A stretch of DNA of 64,000 nucleotides from Dethiosulfovibrio peptidovorans DSM 11002 (GTDB lineage: Bacteria; Synergistota; Synergistia; Synergistales; Dethiosulfovibrionaceae). Below, piece by piece: positions 8,543-16,106 of this stretch. The stretch lies in assembly GCF_000172975.1 (NCBI RefSeq), contig NZ_ABTR02000001.1, positions 1,092,501 to 1,156,500 on the forward strand. The letters are read 5' to 3'. The notes under the pieces were generated by a model. That model had not been told where the DNA came from. It did not search any database and saw only the letters and a list, made by a program, of their open reading frames with translations. The position numbers and the translations under genes are program-made. The first letter of the stretch is position 1. Each line of letters starts with the position of its first letter.

Positions 8543-8570
8543 TTGACATTTCCCGATAACCCCGTAAAAT
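8543..8570 (+). promoter_or_regulatory. Promoter of the aromatic biosynthesis operon
   Basis: Consensus -35 TTGACA at 8543-8548, a 16-nt spacer, then -10 TAAAAT at 8565-8570. It lies about 50 bp before the leader-peptide start and about 325 bp before aroF, leaving room for the attenuator. Confidence 0.8.
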
Positions 8571-8623
8571 GCATCGACAATACAGCACGATAAAATTATC
8601 CGACGACGAAAGGAGGGATACCC

Positions 8624-8773
8624 GTGACGGAACGAGCTAAGAACCAGCCGATAGTCTCCATCTCCATCGATAGTTCTTACTCCTATAGCTTTACCGACGG
8701 CCAGTGGCGCTATTACGCCAGTGGTCTCAGCTCGCATGGAAATCCGTCATCGGGACCTGCTGCCGTCGGGTAG
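8624..8773 (+). CDS. Leader peptide of the aromatic operon (Tyr/Phe/Trp attenuator)
   Basis: A 49-codon frame with a GTG start 5 nt after a strong AGGAGGGA site (8611-8618). Between codons 19 and 31 it has Tyr19, Tyr21, Phe23, Trp28, Tyr30 and Tyr31 (SYSYSF...WRYY): six aromatic codons in thirteen, in an operon that makes aromatic amino acids. It is followed by a strong intrinsic terminator (8816-8857) and then aroF. This is the layout of classical ribosome-stalling attenuation as in the trp and pheA leaders: stalling at Tyr codons when charged tRNA is scarce would favour an antiterminator. The alternative antiterminator pairing was not worked out. The peptide itself probably has no other function. 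Confidence 0.82.
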   Translation: MTERAKNQPIVSISIDSSYSYSFTDGQWRYYASGLSSHGNPSSGPAAVG

Positions 8774-8815
8774 ACCCTCCACAGGAGGGATATCGCAATA
8801 AAGGTAGCCTTAAAG

Positions 8816-8857
8816 GGCCGGAATCCGGATTTTTCATCCGGGCTCCGGCCTTTTTTT
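8816..8857 (+). terminator. Attenuator terminator upstream of aroF
   Basis: GGCCGGA (8816-8822) pairs with TCCGGCC (8844-8850), and CCGGAT (8825-8830) with ATCCGG (8836-8841), separated by a 2-nt internal loop. A run of seven T's follows. It sits 43 nt after the leader-peptide stop and 38 nt before aroF. A smaller hairpin, CCCTCC-ACA-GGAGGG (8775-8789), lies between the peptide stop and the terminator. Confidence 0.88.
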
Positions 8858-8895: not shown

Positions 8896-9936
8896 ATGAT
8901 AGTCGTCCAAATGAACGAACGGAGTTCAAGTCTAGATATAGCCAGGGTCTGCGACCATCAGGAGCGCAGGGGAATGCAGATAAGGGTGGTGCCGGGACGC
9001 AGGGGTAGCACCATAGTCTGCGAGGGACATTCCGAGACTGACCTGGAGCTTAAAAAACTTCCCTCCGTGAAGGCGGTTTCGCGGACGAACTGTCCCTACC
9101 CTCTGGCGAGCCTGGAGGTGTCGGGGCCTCAGGGCCCGGTCGAGGTAGGTCGAGGGCTCTCCATCGGCGGAGGTTCCGTGGCGGTCATGGCAGGGCCATG
9201 TTCGGTGGAGAGCCGGGAGCAGCTTCTCGAGACGGCCAGGGGAGTGGCGTCCTCCGGGGCCTCTGTGCTCAGGGGAGGGGCCTTCAAGCCCCGGTCGAAC
9301 CCCTATTCCTTCCAGGGACTGGGCAGCCAGGGAATAGACCTCCTCCTGGAGGCCAGGGAGGATACCGGGCTTCCCATAGTCACGGAGGTCATGTCGCCGG
9401 AGGACGTTGAGTGGCTGGCCCCTCAGGTGGACATCCTCCAGGTGGGAACCAGGAGCATGCAGAACTTCCCCTTGCTCAAGGCGTTGGGACGGGTGGACAC
9501 TCCGGTACTCCTCAAGAGAGGGATGGCCTCCACCGTGGACGAATGGCTTCAGGCGGCGGAGTACATACTGGCCGGAGGAAACTCCCGGGTGATCCTGTGC
9601 GAGAGGGGAATAAGAAGCTTCGACAAGAGCACCAGAAACACTCTGGATCTGAGCATAGTACCTCTGGTCAAATCCCTGACCCATCTTCCCGTGGTGGTGG
9701 ACCCGAGCCACGCCACCGGCAAGAGGCACCTGGTGGCTCCCATGAGCTTGGCGGCCCTGGCGGCAGGAGCTGACGGCCTCATAGTGGAGGTTCACTCTCG
9801 GCCTGAGGAGGCCCTCTGCGACGGCCCCCAGTCGCTGGACCTTCCTGCCTTCGACGGGCTGATGAACCGGATCTCCCGACTTATGGATGCTTTGGAACCG
9901 GAGGAATCAGAATGGGGCTTGAAGGTCGCCATGTAG
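8896..9936 (+). CDS. aroF: 3-deoxy-7-phosphoheptulonate (DAHP) synthase, AroF/AroAI-beta type
   Basis: A 346-residue enzyme condensing phosphoenolpyruvate with erythrose 4-phosphate, the first step to chorismate. Residues 1 to about 70 form a ferredoxin-like N-terminal domain of the Thermotoga type, typically a site for feedback control by Tyr or Phe. The TIM-barrel core follows with VMAGPCSVESREQL, RGGAFKPRSNPYSFQGLG, the Lys of VLLKRGMAST, ILCERGIRSFD and VVVDPSHATGKR, which together carry the PEP- and metal-binding residues. It is the first gene of the operon, directly after the leader-peptide attenuator, and overlaps the start of tyrA by 25 nt. Regulation is therefore probably double: attenuation and allosteric. 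Confidence 0.96.
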   Translation: MIVVQMNERSSSLDIARVCDHQERRGMQIRVVPGRRGSTIVCEGHSETDLELKKLPSVKAVSRTNCPYPLASLEVSGPQGPVEVGRGLSIGGGSVAVMAGPCSVESREQLLETARGVASSGASVLRGGAFKPRSNPYSFQGLGSQGIDLLLEAREDTGLPIVTEVMSPEDVEWLAPQVDILQVGTRSMQNFPLLKALGRVDTPVLLKRGMASTVDEWLQAAEYILAGGNSRVILCERGIRSFDKSTRNTLDLSIVPLVKSLTHLPVVVDPSHATGKRHLVAPMSLAALAAGADGLIVEVHSRPEEALCDGPQSLDLPAFDGLMNRISRLMDALEPEESEWGLKVAM

Positions 9937-10781
9937 GGATCGTCGGACTGGGGCTTATGGGGGGCTCCCTAGCCGGGAGGCTAACGTCCTGGGGACGGTG
10001 CGCCTCGGTTGCCGCCTGGGATCGAGACCCCTCAGCCCTGGACCTGGGGGAATCAATGGGGCTCTTCACCTACAGAGCCCCCTCGTTGGAGAGGCTGACG
10101 GCAAGGTCTCAGGTCCTTGTTCTGGCGGTTCCGGTGGAGCTCATGGTTCCCGTCTCTCTTTCGGCGGTTCCCTTCGGCGACGGACTGGAGGCGGTGATGG
10201 ACCTCTCCAGCGTGAGGGGATACCTTCACCGGACCCTCGGGCGTATATGGGGCAAAAGGCATCTGGGCTTTCACCCAATGGCCGGCAAGGAGACCGGAGG
10301 GGTGGAAAACGCCTCGCCGGACCTCGTAGAGGGGGCCACGATCGCCCTCGTTTCGGGATCCGACGTCGAAGAGAAGGCGGTGTCCCTGGCGGAGGAGATG
10401 GCGGCGATCCTCGGGGCTTCGACCCTATGCATGGATCCGGACGAACACGACGAGACGGTTGCCTGGATTAGCCATCTTCCCATGGTTCTGGCTTCGGCAC
10501 TGGCTCTCGGAGCTGGAGAGGCAATGGAGAGGCTTCCCGGGATCTCGAAGATGGCTGCGGGAGGCTTCAGGGACACCTCCCGGGTGGCGTCCGGACCTTC
10601 CTGGCTGACGGCCTCGGTCCTGGAACACAACGAAAAACTGGTGCCGGCTATTCGCCGGACCGTGAAGATTCTGGAGGCCTTTATCGACGCATCTCCCGAG
10701 GAAGCTCTTCGAGGGGCGGCTCGAGCGGCCCGATACAGGGAAGCCGTTTTGGCTGGCCCGTCTAAGGAGGAAAAGAGATGA
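9912..10781 (+). CDS. tyrA: Prephenate dehydrogenase
   Basis: A 289-residue NAD(P)-dependent oxidoreductase making 4-hydroxyphenylpyruvate from prephenate (tyrosine branch). The Rossmann fingerprint VGIVGLGLMGGSLAGRL is at residues 8-24. HLGFHPMAGKETGGVENA contains the conserved His of the catalytic region, and the helical C-terminal dimerisation domain runs from about residue 170 (HDETVAWISHLPMVLA). It overlaps aroF by 25 nt and aroA by 4 nt (ATGA), so it is tightly coupled. Its presence, with no prephenate dehydratase in this operon, fits the Tyr-rich leader peptide. Confidence 0.94.
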   Translation: MGLEGRHVGIVGLGLMGGSLAGRLTSWGRCASVAAWDRDPSALDLGESMGLFTYRAPSLERLTARSQVLVLAVPVELMVPVSLSAVPFGDGLEAVMDLSSVRGYLHRTLGRIWGKRHLGFHPMAGKETGGVENASPDLVEGATIALVSGSDVEEKAVSLAEEMAAILGASTLCMDPDEHDETVAWISHLPMVLASALALGAGEAMERLPGISKMAAGGFRDTSRVASGPSWLTASVLEHNEKLVPAIRRTVKILEAFIDASPEEALRGAARAARYREAVLAGPSKEEKR

Positions 10782-12061
10782 CTAGATCCATAAACGGCAG
10801 AATTGAGGTGCCTGGAGATAAATCAATCTCCCACAGGGTAGGTATCCTCGGAGCTCTGTCCAGCCGGGGAATAGAGGTTACCAACTTCTCTTCCGGAGCG
10901 GACTGCGCCAGCACTCTGGACTGCGTGGAGAAGCTTGGCTGCTCGGTTGAGCGACATGGAGACAGGGTTAAGGTCGCCAGAGGAGAGGGCATAGCCGAGG
11001 CGTCCCGTACGCTGGACGCCGGGAACTCCGGCACCACGGCCAGATTGCTCTGCGGACTGTTGGCCGGGGTGCCAGGTACCTTCTCGGTGCTTACCGGAGA
11101 CGACAGTCTGCAGCGCCGTCCCATGAGCAGAATCGTAGATCCCCTCAGGGTTCTGGGGGCCAGAATAGACGGCCGAGACGGAGGCAAGAGGCTTCCCCTC
11201 TCCATAAGGGGAACCAGACTGACCGGAGGCCAGTACGTTCTGCCGATGGCGAGCGCCCAAGTCAAGAGCGCCCTGTTGCTGGCGGGACTCTCAGCCCAGG
11301 GCAGCGTGACGGTCGTGGAGCCCCTGCCGACCAGGGACCATACGGAGATAATGCTGGAGCATCTGGGGGTTCCCATAAGGAGGGACGGGGACTCGGTCAC
11401 GGTATATCCTTTCGACGACCTTCCCGGAGGATCCTGGAGGGTACCGGGAGACTTCTCCTCAGCGGCCTTCTGGATCGTAGCGGCTGCGATATGCTCCGAC
11501 TCGTCGGTCCGGCTCTCCGGAGTGGGATTGAACCCCACCAGGACAGGGCTGTTGGAGGTCCTTAGGTCCATGGGGCTGGACTGCTCTGTGGAGAACGAGA
11601 GCGCCCAAGGAGGCGAGCCGGTCGGGGACCTGATCGTCAGAAGCTCCTCCCTTCGTTCCGTATCGGTAGGGTCCGACATGGTTCCGTCCATGGTCGACGA
11701 GCTGCCATTGCTGGCAGTGGCAGCCACACAGGCGGAGGGAACCACCGAGATAAGAGGGGCGGGAGAGCTCAGGGTAAAGGAGTGCGACCGCATCGCCGCA
11801 GTGGCCGAGGGATTGAGGGCTATGGGAGCGGATATAACCGAGCACGACGATGGCTGGACCATCCCGGGATCCCAGAAGCTCCGTGGTGCCAGGGTGGACA
11901 GCAGAGGGGACCACCGTATAGCCATGGCCATGGCGGTGGCTGGACTGGCGGCTGACGGGCCTGTGGAGATACTTGGCTCCGACTGCGTCTCCATCTCCTA
12001 CCCCGAGTTCTTCTCTCAGCTGGAGGAACTCTCCGACGACCTCGTTCCGACGAGAGGCTGA
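10778..12061 (+). CDS. aroA: 5-enolpyruvylshikimate-3-phosphate synthase
   Basis: A 427-residue EPSP synthase, of normal length, transferring enolpyruvyl from PEP to shikimate 3-phosphate. Key motifs are PGDKSISHRVGILGALS near residue 11, LDAGNSGTTARLLCGLLAG (PEP-binding) near residue 80, LQRRPMSRI near residue 110, VPGDFSSAAFWIVAAA, and the active-site segments DELPLLAVAA and RGDHRIAMAMAVA. It starts inside the tyrA stop (ATGA) and has a GGAGG site. It is followed by aroC after 8 nt. Confidence 0.97.
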   Translation: MTRSINGRIEVPGDKSISHRVGILGALSSRGIEVTNFSSGADCASTLDCVEKLGCSVERHGDRVKVARGEGIAEASRTLDAGNSGTTARLLCGLLAGVPGTFSVLTGDDSLQRRPMSRIVDPLRVLGARIDGRDGGKRLPLSIRGTRLTGGQYVLPMASAQVKSALLLAGLSAQGSVTVVEPLPTRDHTEIMLEHLGVPIRRDGDSVTVYPFDDLPGGSWRVPGDFSSAAFWIVAAAICSDSSVRLSGVGLNPTRTGLLEVLRSMGLDCSVENESAQGGEPVGDLIVRSSSLRSVSVGSDMVPSMVDELPLLAVAATQAEGTTEIRGAGELRVKECDRIAAVAEGLRAMGADITEHDDGWTIPGSQKLRGARVDSRGDHRIAMAMAVAGLAADGPVEILGSDCVSISYPEFFSQLEELSDDLVPTRG

Positions 12062-12069
12062 CCGGGACC

Positions 12070-13239
12070 ATGGCTATCCGTTTTCTCACAGGAGGCGAAT
12101 CCCACGGAAGAGGGCTCGTCACTATCGTCGAGGGACTTCCGGCCGGACTGGAGCTACCCAAGGACCTGCTGGAGTCCGAGCTGGCCCGAAGGCGGAGAGG
12201 ATGGGGAAGAGGCCCCAGAATGGCCCTGGAAAGGGATCGTCTGGAGGTGTGGGGCGGCCTGAGAGACGGCGTGACCACCGGGGCGCCTCTGTCGATCTGT
12301 CTGGAGAACACCGAGTGGGAGTCTTGGAGAGGAGCTCTGGATCCCCATGACGTGGATCCGGAGAAGGCGGAGAAGAAGCGAATCGACTGTCCCAGACCGG
12401 GCCACTCGGACCTGGTCGGAGGTATCAAATACGGACACTCGGACATGAGGAACGTGCTGGAGCGCTCCAGCGCCAGATCCACCGCCGCCTTGACCCTGGC
12501 CGGGACCGTAGCCCGGGCTCTTCTCGAGAGGCTTGGGATAACCGTCAGGGGAGCGGTCACCTCCATAGGAGGGGTCGCCATAGAGGATCCTCTGTCGGAG
12601 GAAGAGTGGACCAGAGCCGAGACTTCCGATCTCGGCTGCCCTAGAGAGGCGGACGAGAAAGCCCTGATATCCCGGATCTCCAAGGCTAAGGAAGAGGGCG
12701 ACTCTTTAGGAGGAACCTTTCTGGTGTCTCTTCGCGGTATGCCCGTAGGGGTCGGGTCCTACGTGGAGTGGGATCGACGTCTGGACGGTAAGCTGGCCGG
12801 GGCGGTTATGTCCATACCGGCCATAAAGGGAGTGGAGATAGGCGGAGGGTTCAACCTCGCGGCACTTCCCGGCAGCCTGGTTCACGACGAGATCTCGATG
12901 GAGGACGGAAAGATAGTCCGTCTATCGAACAGAGCCGGCGGCCTCGAGGGGGGTATGACCAACGGCCAGGACGTTTTGGTGCGGGCGGCGATGAAGCCCA
13001 TCCCCACCATGAGAAAGCCTCTGAGGTCGGTGGATCTGGCCAGAGGTGAGAATACCATGGCCCACTTCGAGAGGAGCGACAGCTGCGCGGTTCCCGCCGC
13101 CTGCGTCGTGGGAGAGGCCATGGTGGCCTGGGTGGCCGCCTCTGCCCTCACGGAAAGGTTCGGAGGAGACGTTATGGAGGACCTGGAGCGTAGGGTCTCG
13201 GAACTTCGTCTGGAGACAGGGAGGGATCGTCGTGGGTAG
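12070..13239 (+). CDS. aroC: Chorismate synthase
   Basis: A 389-residue enzyme that eliminates phosphate from EPSP to form chorismate, using reduced FMN. The N-terminal signature FLTGGESHGRGLVTIVEGLPAG, the ERSSARSTAALTLAG segment (family form ERxSAR) and the C-terminal GxENTMAHFERSDSCAVPAACVVGEAM stretch are all present. Length matches the bacterial family. Its 3' end overlaps the GTG start of aroKB by 8 nt. Confidence 0.97.
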   Translation: MAIRFLTGGESHGRGLVTIVEGLPAGLELPKDLLESELARRRRGWGRGPRMALERDRLEVWGGLRDGVTTGAPLSICLENTEWESWRGALDPHDVDPEKAEKKRIDCPRPGHSDLVGGIKYGHSDMRNVLERSSARSTAALTLAGTVARALLERLGITVRGAVTSIGGVAIEDPLSEEEWTRAETSDLGCPREADEKALISRISKAKEEGDSLGGTFLVSLRGMPVGVGSYVEWDRRLDGKLAGAVMSIPAIKGVEIGGGFNLAALPGSLVHDEISMEDGKIVRLSNRAGGLEGGMTNGQDVLVRAAMKPIPTMRKPLRSVDLARGENTMAHFERSDSCAVPAACVVGEAMVAWVAASALTERFGGDVMEDLERRVSELRLETGRDRRG

Positions 13240-14794
13240 AGGAGAGCTGGTTTTTCTCGGAGGGTTCATGGGATCCGGAAAGACCTCGGTGGGCCAGAGG
13301 CTGGCCGAGGCAGTGGGACTTCCCTTCGTGGATCTGGACAAGGCCATAGAGCTTAGGGCCGGGGCCTCCGTGGCGGAGATATTCGCCTCTCAGGGGGAGG
13401 AAGGCTTCCGCAGGCTCGAGGCCCAGTCGCTTAGAGAGATATCGGACCTCGAACGGTGCATAGTCGCCCTGGGCGGCGGTGCCCTGAAGGATCCGAAGGG
13501 TCGGGAGCTCATCCGCAAAAAAGGCAGACTTGTGATACTGGACGCTTCGGCGGATACGGTAAAAAACAGGGTGGCGGCCCAGCCGGGACAGAGGCCTCTT
13601 CTGAAGATGGAGAACCTTGAGGATCTCTGGGAGAAAAGGCGTCCCCTTTACAGCGACGGCGACCTGAGAGTTGAGACGGATCATCTTAACGTCTCTCAGG
13701 TGGCGGAGGCGATCCGGGAGGGGTTATCCCTTCCATTGAAGGGCGACTGCGATCAGAGGATCCTCGGGGACGAGAGGACCGGCCTGGTGGTGGTAGGCCA
13801 GGGAGTGCTGTCGAAACTTCCGGAGCTTCTCGGCCGGACCGATACCTATGTGGTGGCCGACTCCATGACAGGACCTCTCTTCGAGCCGGTGGTAGGCCAG
13901 ACAAGGGGGCGTTCGGTGCTTCCCAGAGGCGAGGACGCCAAGACCATGGAGGTGGTGGAAGGACTGTACGACGACTTTCTCTCCGTTGGTATGGACCGGG
14001 GCGACGTGGTGTTGGCCCTGGGCGGCGGCTGTGTGGGAGACGTGGCCGGATTCGCCGCCGCTACCTGGATGAGGGGAATAGAGCTTGTCCAGTGTCCCAC
14101 CACCCTTTTGGCCCAGGTGGACAGCTCCATAGGAGGCAAGGTCGGGGTGAACCTGCCTCAGGGAAAGAACCTCGTCGGAGCCTTCCATCGTCCGAAAATA
14201 GTCCTTTCCGACGTGAACTGTCTTACCTCCCTTTCCTGGAAGGACTACCGCCAGGGACTGGGAGAGGTGGTCAAGTACGGTCTCGGAGAGGATCCCGAGC
14301 TTTTCGATCTTCTGGAGAGAAACGTCGGAGGCCTTCTGCGCCGCGATCCCGGTTTGCTGGTGGAGGTTGTGGCCCGGTGTGTCTCCATAAAACTCGACCT
14401 GGTTTCTCGGGACGAAAGGGAGCACGATGTCAGGACCAGACTCAACCTGGGACACACGGTGGCCCACGGTCTGGAGGCTGCCTCGGGATATCGCGACTGG
14501 AGCCACGGAGACGCAGTGGCCGTCGGAATGGTCGTGGCGACCGAGCTCTCCTGTCGATTGGGAGAGTGCGACAGGCACAGATTGGACAGGCTTAACCGGC
14601 TTCTGACGGATCTGAGGTTACCTCGCCGTCCCGATCGACCCTGGCCCGACCTGGAGCGCCATATCGCCAGAGACAAGAAGTTCAGAAAAGGCAGCCCCAG
14701 GCTGGTGCTTCCCAGAAGCGACGAGGTCTCCTTCGTATGGGAGGGCCCCATCGAAGAGCTGAGAAGAGCCTACGAAGAGGTCTACAGATCCTAG
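13232..14794 (+). CDS. aroKB: Bifunctional shikimate kinase / 3-dehydroquinate synthase
   Basis: A 520-residue fusion. Residues 1 to about 165 are shikimate kinase, with the P-loop GGFMGSGKTSVGQRL, VDLDKAIELRAG and GGGALK. Residues about 180-520 are 3-dehydroquinate synthase, with LALGGGCVGDVAGFAAATWMRG, PTTLLAQVDSSIGGKVGVN, GLGEVVKYGL and LNLGHTVAHGLE, covering NAD- and metal-binding residues. The same AroK-AroB fusion order is known from Thermotoga and relatives. The GTG at 13232 has a GGGAGGGA site (13219-13226) and overlaps aroC; a longer frame open upstream is read-through in the aroC shadow. The operon thus covers four chorismate steps plus tyrA; aroD/aroQ and aroE must be elsewhere. 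Confidence 0.95.
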   Translation: MGRGELVFLGGFMGSGKTSVGQRLAEAVGLPFVDLDKAIELRAGASVAEIFASQGEEGFRRLEAQSLREISDLERCIVALGGGALKDPKGRELIRKKGRLVILDASADTVKNRVAAQPGQRPLLKMENLEDLWEKRRPLYSDGDLRVETDHLNVSQVAEAIREGLSLPLKGDCDQRILGDERTGLVVVGQGVLSKLPELLGRTDTYVVADSMTGPLFEPVVGQTRGRSVLPRGEDAKTMEVVEGLYDDFLSVGMDRGDVVLALGGGCVGDVAGFAAATWMRGIELVQCPTTLLAQVDSSIGGKVGVNLPQGKNLVGAFHRPKIVLSDVNCLTSLSWKDYRQGLGEVVKYGLGEDPELFDLLERNVGGLLRRDPGLLVEVVARCVSIKLDLVSRDEREHDVRTRLNLGHTVAHGLEAASGYRDWSHGDAVAVGMVVATELSCRLGECDRHRLDRLNRLLTDLRLPRRPDRPWPDLERHIARDKKFRKGSPRLVLPRSDEVSFVWEGPIEELRRAYEEVYRS

Positions 14795-14873
14795 GTCTTC
14801 TGGCAAACTTACCGCCTCCGTTGTATCATGATGGCCTTGCATATACAGGCAGTCATCGAAGGAAGTGGTTTTT

Positions 14874-16106
14874 ATGATAGCAGATAGATACGACGCTTTT
14901 TTTCTCGACCTTGACGGGGTCGTCTATGTGGGAGATCGTCAGACCAACGGCGCCGCCTCGGCTCTGGACAGGCTCCGTTCCATGGGCAAGGACATTCGGT
15001 TTCTCACCAATAACCCCACCGACGGAAGCGAGATAGTTCGTCGATTGAAGGAGTTGGGGATAGAGGCAAAGGAGGAAGAGGTGGTCACCTCCGGTACCGC
15101 CACCGCCCGAGTGCTGGCCGACAGGGGCATCGGCCCTGTGTGGGTGCTGGGCCACGGTGGACTGAGAAAGGCCATGACCGACGCGAAACTCTCCCTTGCG
15201 GAGGCCCCGCCATGCGAGGCGGTCGTGGTGGGATGGGACGACGACGTCACCTTGGGACAGATCCGGCGGGCCGCTCTGGCGATCCGACAGGGGGCTCTCT
15301 TCGTCGCCACCAATGAGGACCCCACCTATCCCAGTTCGGAAGGCATTCTTTCCGGCGTTGGGGTTGTGGTGGACGCACTCATTGCCGGAAGCGGAACCAG
15401 ACCCCTCTCGGTGGGCAAACCTTGGACCGCCATGTTCGAGCAGGCTAGGAGGACCCTGGCTCCGGGAAAACGTGCCGTAATGATCGGTGATACCCCTTAC
15501 GTGGACGTCCTGGGAGCTCACAGGGCCGGTATAGACGCCATACTAATGGGATCCGCCGAGACCTATCCCGGCAAGTTGGACTTTAGAAATCCGGACGGAC
15601 GGATAGACAAATTAGGCGATCTGTTCGACGACGCGATCTCCATGGGAGTCTGGGACTCTCCCACCTACCCTTGGCCCGAGTCGGTTGAGCCGGGAGTGGC
15701 CGGGGTGGTCCTGGACGAATCGGGCAGAGTCCTTCTGATGCGTCGCTCCGATAACGGACGATGGGGCATCCCCTCGGGGCACGTCGAGCCCGGCGAGACC
15801 GTGCAGACCGCCGTGGTCAGGGAGATCCGTGAGGAGACGGGACTGGAGGTGGAGGTCGAGGAGCTGATAGGCCTCTACTCCGATCCGGTGTCGCAGGTGA
15901 TAACTTATCCGGACAGTCGCATTTGCCATTTCGTGACCAGCTGTTTCCTCTGCCGAGTAATGGGTGGCTCTCTGATCACCTCCGGCCCCGAGACGCTGGA
16001 CGCCGGTTTCTTCGATCCTCATGATTTGCCGGAGCCTCTGATGTCCATGCACCCCAGATGGCTTGCCGACGCGCTGGCCCCTTCCGGAAGACCTTTCGTG
16101 AGATAG
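14874..16106 (+). CDS. HAD-family phosphatase (NagD-like) fused to a NUDIX hydrolase
   Basis: A 410-residue two-domain protein. Residues 1 to about 265 are a HAD type-IIA phosphatase (NagD / p-nitrophenylphosphatase-like): the DxD nucleophile motif is Asp12/Asp14 in FFLDLDGVVYVGD, then FLTNN, and the acidic VMIGDTPYVDVLGA motif. Residues about 270-400 are a NUDIX domain with a complete Nudix box (GHVEPGE...REIREETGL). Both enzymes act on phosphate esters of small molecules, so a housecleaning or nucleotide-salvage role is plausible; the substrate is unknown. An in-frame GTG at 14865 is possible, but the ATG at 14874 has better spacing from GAAGGA. It is monocistronic and follows the aro operon after 79 nt. 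Confidence 0.88.
   Translation: MIADRYDAFFLDLDGVVYVGDRQTNGAASALDRLRSMGKDIRFLTNNPTDGSEIVRRLKELGIEAKEEEVVTSGTATARVLADRGIGPVWVLGHGGLRKAMTDAKLSLAEAPPCEAVVVGWDDDVTLGQIRRAALAIRQGALFVATNEDPTYPSSEGILSGVGVVVDALIAGSGTRPLSVGKPWTAMFEQARRTLAPGKRAVMIGDTPYVDVLGAHRAGIDAILMGSAETYPGKLDFRNPDGRIDKLGDLFDDAISMGVWDSPTYPWPESVEPGVAGVVLDESGRVLLMRRSDNGRWGIPSGHVEPGETVQTAVVREIREETGLEVEVEELIGLYSDPVSQVITYPDSRICHFVTSCFLCRVMGGSLITSGPETLDAGFFDPHDLPEPLMSMHPRWLADALAPSGRPFVR

Follow-up and report, generated by a model that had tools for sequence, protein, structure and literature searches.

A tyrosine- and phenylalanine-coding leader with a covarying antiterminator, a probable transcription attenuator of the aro operon in Synergistales

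The aro operon of the anaerobe Dethiosulfovibrio peptidovorans DSM 11002 is preceded by a leader element that is very probably a ribosome-mediated transcription attenuator, controlling aroF-tyrA-aroA-aroC-aroKB through the supply of tRNA-Tyr and tRNA-Phe, as judged from comparative sequence analysis. The element lies in a 64-kb stretch of DNA, hereafter the window. Its leader codons, its terminator, a conserved hairpin termed P and a covarying antiterminator are established by comparison with related genomes; from these parts we infer ribosome stalling, its timing and the amino acids that count, with Tyr and Phe likely and Trp doubtful. The original prediction had placed the aro operon under ribosome-mediated attenuation, and the codons, the terminator and the antiterminator covarying in relatives support it, but its label of translational attenuation was wrong, the proper term being transcription attenuation. 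The leader region comprises the following features.

8543-8570, forward strand: sigma-70-type promoter TTGACA-16-TAAAAT, with 11 of 12 consensus bases in a consensus scan.
8609-8618, forward strand: Shine-Dalgarno sequence of the leader ORF, within GAAAGGAGGG, read from the sequence and kept in relatives.
8624-8773, forward strand: leader ORF of 49 codons plus TAG, read from the sequence, with start codon and core kept in relatives.
8661-8670, forward strand: possible sequestering strand found by folding, pairing with about 8730-8740; the pairing is weak, lineage-specific and not conserved across the order.
8699-8726, forward strand: conserved hairpin P, supported by covariation, with arms GGCCAGUGGCG (8699-8709) and CGCCAGUGGUC (8716-8726) and a loop CUAUUA holding Tyr codons 30-31.
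8736-8746, forward strand: antiterminator strand AUGGAAAUCCG, within the leader ORF (swap test 0/2000; covariation 0/500).
8826-8835, forward strand: antiterminator partner CGGAUUUUUC, the inner 5' arm and loop of the terminator (swap test and covariation).
8816-8857, forward strand: intrinsic terminator, stem 8816-8850 and T7 8851-8857, supported by folding and by covariation in 42 two-sided cells.

The leader sits between a divergent glycosyltransferase gene and aroF. Its Shine-Dalgarno sequence, AAAGGAGGG, stands directly 5' of a GTG start at 8624, the TAG stop occupies 8771-8773 and the encoded peptide is MTERAKNQPIVSISIDSSYSYSFTDGQWRYYASGLSSHGNPSSGPAAVG, with aromatic codons at Tyr19, Tyr21, Phe23, Trp28, Tyr30 and Tyr31, that is, four Tyr, one Phe and one Trp within thirteen codons. 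Translation of the ORF is presumed from its ribosome site and kept start codon. The terminator ends 39 bases 5' of the aroF start (8896) and thus lies between the leader and the first structural gene, the arrangement of an attenuator; it was seen by folding and is absent from the list of terminators returned by a pattern scan. Sequence and folding show the promoter, ribosome site, 49-codon Tyr/Phe/Trp peptide and seven-T terminator of the original prediction to be exact to the base. Compared with shuffled sequences, the leader RNA has a folding energy 3.9 sd lower. We also asked how often such a combination arises by chance, taking ORFs of 15-90 codons that have at least six aromatic codons in a stretch of 13 and are followed, no more than 160 bases on, by a strong terminator: the leader was the sole such ORF in the 64-kb window, and the combination of ORF and terminator occurred in none of ten Markov copies of it.

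Downstream, NCBIfam models identify the claimed gene set, a DAHP synthase, tyrA and three chorismate genes, as aroF, tyrA, aroA, aroC and a fused aroK-aroB.

8896-9936, forward strand: aroF, type I-beta DAHP synthase, the first controlled gene (NCBIfam NF006421, TIGR01361).
9912-10781, forward strand: tyrA, prephenate dehydrogenase (best NCBIfam matches are prephenate dehydrogenases, under the curated cut-offs).
10778-12061, forward strand: aroA, 3-phosphoshikimate 1-carboxyvinyltransferase (TIGR01356).
12070-13239, forward strand: aroC, chorismate synthase (TIGR00033).
13046-14794, forward strand: aroK-aroB fusion, shikimate kinase and 3-dehydroquinate synthase (TIGR01357 and a PRK14021-type match over residues 72-579); the true start is probably near 13240.

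Further 3' of aroKB, the ORF at 14865-16106 fuses a HAD-IIA phosphatase with a Nudix domain.

Relatives were collected by an AroF search of 100 related genomes, which yielded loci from most of the order's families. Every intact aroF locus of the window's type that we read in Synergistales (L082-L111, one of them truncated) carries a promoter, a leader ORF and a terminator. The parts follow one order, promoter, ribosome site, start codon, leader ORF of about 46-80 codons, terminator and aroF, and a -35-like TTGACA stands at a comparable upstream distance in most of the relatives whose sequence upstream of aroF was read. Each leader has 6-13 aromatic codons, Tyr being prominent, and shares the peptide core [Y/F]n-F-T/S-x-G-Q-W-R-Y-Y-A-S-G, followed in most by R-G-N-P. 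In the alignment, the loop of hairpin P has 3- or 6-base insertions that are nearly always whole Tyr or Phe codons, as expected if selection acts on codons and not on RNA shape. Relatives thus keep both the aromatic codons and the terminator before aroF, whose absence had been named in advance as evidence against attenuation. A covariance model of the core, searched in 188 Synergistota genomes, found the element in 38 of them, with a single copy in the window's genome.

One relative, Thermovirga lienii, carries the aro operon and its leader on the 31.9-kb plasmid pTLIE01 (L174, CP003097.1), where a transposase gene lies about 5 kb 5' of the leader. Here the leader is annotated as the hypothetical protein Tlie_1900, so that the expectation that such small genes are missed by automatic annotation holds only in part.

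Hairpin P and the antiterminator carry most of the comparative signal. P is formed in 25/25 relatives, with 89% of cells paired, and the antiterminator (8736-8746 with 8826-8835) has 91% of its pair cells formed across 25 sequences. Taken together, the two helices are 90% paired, a value that falls to 51% or less when they are slid by 1-3 columns; they show 26 two-sided changes, a number reached in 0/500 shuffles. Swapping antiterminator partners between species weakened the mean duplex from -18.2 to -14.4 kcal/mol, a cost of 3.7, and 0/2000 permutations reached the native mean. Examples of the pair are GUGGAAAUCCG/CGGAUUUCCAC, GUAGAGAUCCG/CGGGUUUCUAC and GGAGACCG/CGGUCUC. The terminator itself is 94% paired across relatives, with 42 cells changed on both sides. 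Covariation and the swap test therefore both point to an antiterminator mutually exclusive with the terminator, the alternative fold that the original prediction had proposed to look for by covariation in related genomes. Two local observations concern P: the motif CCAGTGG occurs twice, at 8702-8708 and 8718-8724, once per arm, giving a G-G mismatch in most species and G-C in L095, L098-L100 and L105-L109; and the stretch 8727-8737, which separates P from the conserved UGG of the antiterminator strand, varies in sequence but hardly in length. P might also serve as an RNA polymerase pause hairpin.

These pairings bear on whether the ORF is simply a small protein gene with its own terminator, unconnected to the control of aroF. 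A promoter, a ribosome site and a terminator of its own do speak for that, as does the annotation of the T. lienii copy as a hypothetical protein, but the terminator pairs and covaries with a stretch of the ORF itself, relatives do not conserve the C-terminal part of the peptide, and the element accompanies aroF, aroA or aroE; we regard this as the least credible reading.

Copies before aroA and aroE occur in one family, where the leader also precedes eight aroA loci and two aroE loci (L142-L150, L152), having been copied to separate transcription units. There, hairpin P is made of different helices in the same place, GACCAGGGA...CCCCUGGUC or GACCGUUGGU...GCCGACGGUC, and the antiterminator too has been remade from new sequence, for example CUGGAAACCG with CGGUUUCCAG. 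The core peptide becomes CDQGYYYPLV in aroA leaders and CDRWYYYADG in aroE leaders; the aroA leaders have lost the Trp codon from this core and retain Tyr and Phe, whereas aroE leaders retain Trp. The loss of Trp beside the retention of Tyr and Phe makes the latter two the likely signals and leaves Trp doubtful, and the invariant UGG of the aroF leaders also falls within a paired stem. The proposal that several amino acids are sensed by one peptide thus stands as likely for Tyr and Phe, whose codons are kept, and becomes doubtful for Trp. A single leader family placed over several operons, aroF, aroA and aroE, offers a natural experiment on which codons matter.

The same copies help to weigh two other ways of setting the terminator. 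A TnaC-style arrest peptide, in which the nascent leader and a free aromatic compound stall the ribosome, would account for the core F-T-x-G-Q-W-R-Y-Y-A-S-G shared by aroF leaders and for the encoding of Ala-Ser-Gly with different Ser codons in L105-L109. That core lies inside a paired stem, however, which alone could conserve it, and the aroA and aroE leaders differ in peptide at this place yet retain the Tyr/Phe codons and the RNA pairing, so we consider an arrest peptide improbable. Alternatively, a bound protein, small molecule or tRNA could set the terminator, as in a protein-binding leader, a riboswitch or a T-box, in which case the ORF would be incidental. The highly conserved sequence of P could be a binding site, but it differs in the aroA and aroE copies, no Rfam family including T-box matches the window or its relatives, and the ORF retains its ribosome site, its start codon and in-frame insertions of aromatic codons, making a bound ligand highly improbable. 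The Rfam search, which included Trp_leader and Phe_leader, gave no relevant match at the gathering score nor with E up to 5, and the T-box model had no match in the window or relatives; a T-box-like GGGTGGTGCCGGGAC at about 8984 was discarded, as it is aroF coding sequence and no T-box matches.

Under the favored model of ribosome-mediated attenuation, transcription would begin just 3' of 8570 and a ribosome would initiate on the 49-codon leader at 8624. Under shortage of charged tRNA-Tyr, and probably also of tRNA-Phe, the ribosome would stall on the aromatic codons, so that both the 5' leader region and hairpin P (8699-8726) stay open and 8736-8746 is left free. This strand would capture 8826-8835 once transcribed, so that the nascent terminator cannot zip and RNA polymerase reads into aroF. 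With plentiful amino acids, the ribosome would cross 8736-8746 to reach the stop at 8771 and the RNA behind it would refold; the strand would then be late for its partner, the terminator would form and transcription would end near 8857.

What keeps the strand from its partner in the unstalled case is less plain from the RNA. Hairpin P is universal yet has no overlap with the antiterminator strand. A conserved upstream helix sequestering that strand was sought by ensemble folding and duplex swaps, which turned up lineage-specific pairings alone; for such upstream pairings 17/5000 permutations were as good, and single sequences were mostly no better than shuffled ones. The leader stop codon lies 24 bases 3' of the antiterminator strand, so a ribosome parked at the stop would leave the strand uncovered, unlike in trpL. 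We tried equilibrium folding as proof of the switch and rejected it: the full terminator wins at equilibrium in almost all sequences, even with the antiterminator strand free. The switch must therefore be kinetic, the strand capturing its partner before the 3' arm emerges. In transcripts ending in the terminator loop and with the 5' part masked, as it would be by a stalled ribosome, the mean antiterminator probability is 0.85; masking raises it from 0.53 to 0.85 for the window sequence and from about 0 to 0.8-0.9 for L093 and L103. Our preferred explanation is that ribosome passage over 8736-8746 during terminator synthesis would keep the strand away when no stalling occurs.

Aromatic leaders are not restricted to this motif. 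Synergistota aroF genes that lack it mostly carry another aromatic leader, and two further families, unrelated in sequence, stand before divergent aroF genes: MMNVSFFAAEYYYFYFFGASRKVILCCQKADR (L162, L164, L166 and L170, from the same family as the window) and MLKFSGFDFAGFYYFYCYTRNKSD... (L157, L158, L161 and L165). Some aroF copies with no convincing leader, such as L155 and L160, directly adjoin the preceding coding region.

We further examined aroF loci from other phyla. A short ORF with at least seven aromatic codons in 12 precedes 31 of 73 such loci; among shuffled segments the figure is 0.5%, and among other segments 0.6%. Because the loci were sampled for their resemblance to the window's AroF and many of them are related, the counts do not represent independent events. 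Among these ORFs, picked for their aromatic content, a terminator-like hairpin lies 3' of 29/33 aromatic leaders versus 1/165 shuffles. In the 30 testable leaders, pairing between the stretch that follows the aromatic codons and the terminator of the same leader has a mean of -20.0 kcal/mol, versus -15.0 with the terminators of others (0/3000 permutations), and the pairing strand is mostly inside the ORF. The other-phyla leaders that were scanned had no Rfam match. An aromatic ORF and terminator before a type I-beta DAHP synthase were seen in Desulfuromonadales, Syntrophus, Clostridia, Acidobacteriota and Rokubacteria (L002-L081, e.g., L059, L072, L073, L065, L069, L061). It is a tentative proposal, nearly an even call, that mixed Phe/Tyr(/Trp) attenuators are a widespread and mostly undescribed control of type I-beta DAHP synthase in at least five phyla (Synergistota, Desulfobacterota, Bacillota, Acidobacteriota and Rokubacteria), with an ORF-internal antiterminator strand just after the aromatic codons capturing the terminator loop and 5' arm, and that they act as general sensors of aromatic supply rather than of one amino acid. 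Should this hold across phyla, control of DAHP synthase by a preceding aromatic leader peptide would be a common regulatory solution missing from Rfam.

Ribosome-mediated attenuation by aromatic leader peptides is known from trpL and pheL. The Synergistales element resembles these E. coli leaders (Rfam Trp_leader and Phe_leader) in having a leader peptide with control codons, an antiterminator and an intrinsic terminator; unlike them, each tied to one amino acid, it has no Rfam match. In E. coli trpL and pheL the antiterminator strand lies 3' of the leader stop, whereas in the Synergistales element it lies inside the ORF.

Closer in arrangement and function, and in these only, is Corynebacterium glutamicum aroR, a transcription attenuator with Phe and Tyr codons before a DAHP synthase gene, aroF; its Phe-Tyr-Phe leader is reported to respond to Phe and not to Tyr (Neshat et al., 2014, per PMC11802643; also PMC4046766). 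The Synergistales leaders differ in their 6-13 aromatic codons, larger aro operon, conserved hairpin P, copies before aroA and aroE, and phylum. In Acholeplasma, the uORFC-13-1 motif likewise puts a uORF, complete with promoter, ribosome site and intrinsic terminator, ahead of aroF and has at least one Phe codon (PMC8632094), but it is genus-restricted and the text describing it gives no antiterminator. A survey of five genomes, including the T. lienii chromosome, shows in Fig. 6b two candidate uORFs, linked to shikimate genes, whose peptides contain Phe and Tyr (PMC6429828) and which are possibly relatives of the Synergistales element; the T. lienii accession surveyed there is the chromosome, whereas the aro operon is on pTLIE01. 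Attenuation of clusters joining DAHP synthase and tyrA also features in the purely computational predictions by Merino of putative attenuators before tyrA supraoperons, whose entries examined in Table 7 of PMC1173090 are other taxa; that article does not describe leader peptides. The novelty first claimed was thus overstated, with aroR known (PMC11802643) and further shikimate-linked uORF candidates published (PMC6429828, PMC8632094). The Synergistales element is a new leader family, absent from Rfam, that would work by an already known type of mechanism, and it provides a concrete model, backed by covariation, of how the whole chorismate pathway may be controlled in a phylum whose regulation is little known.
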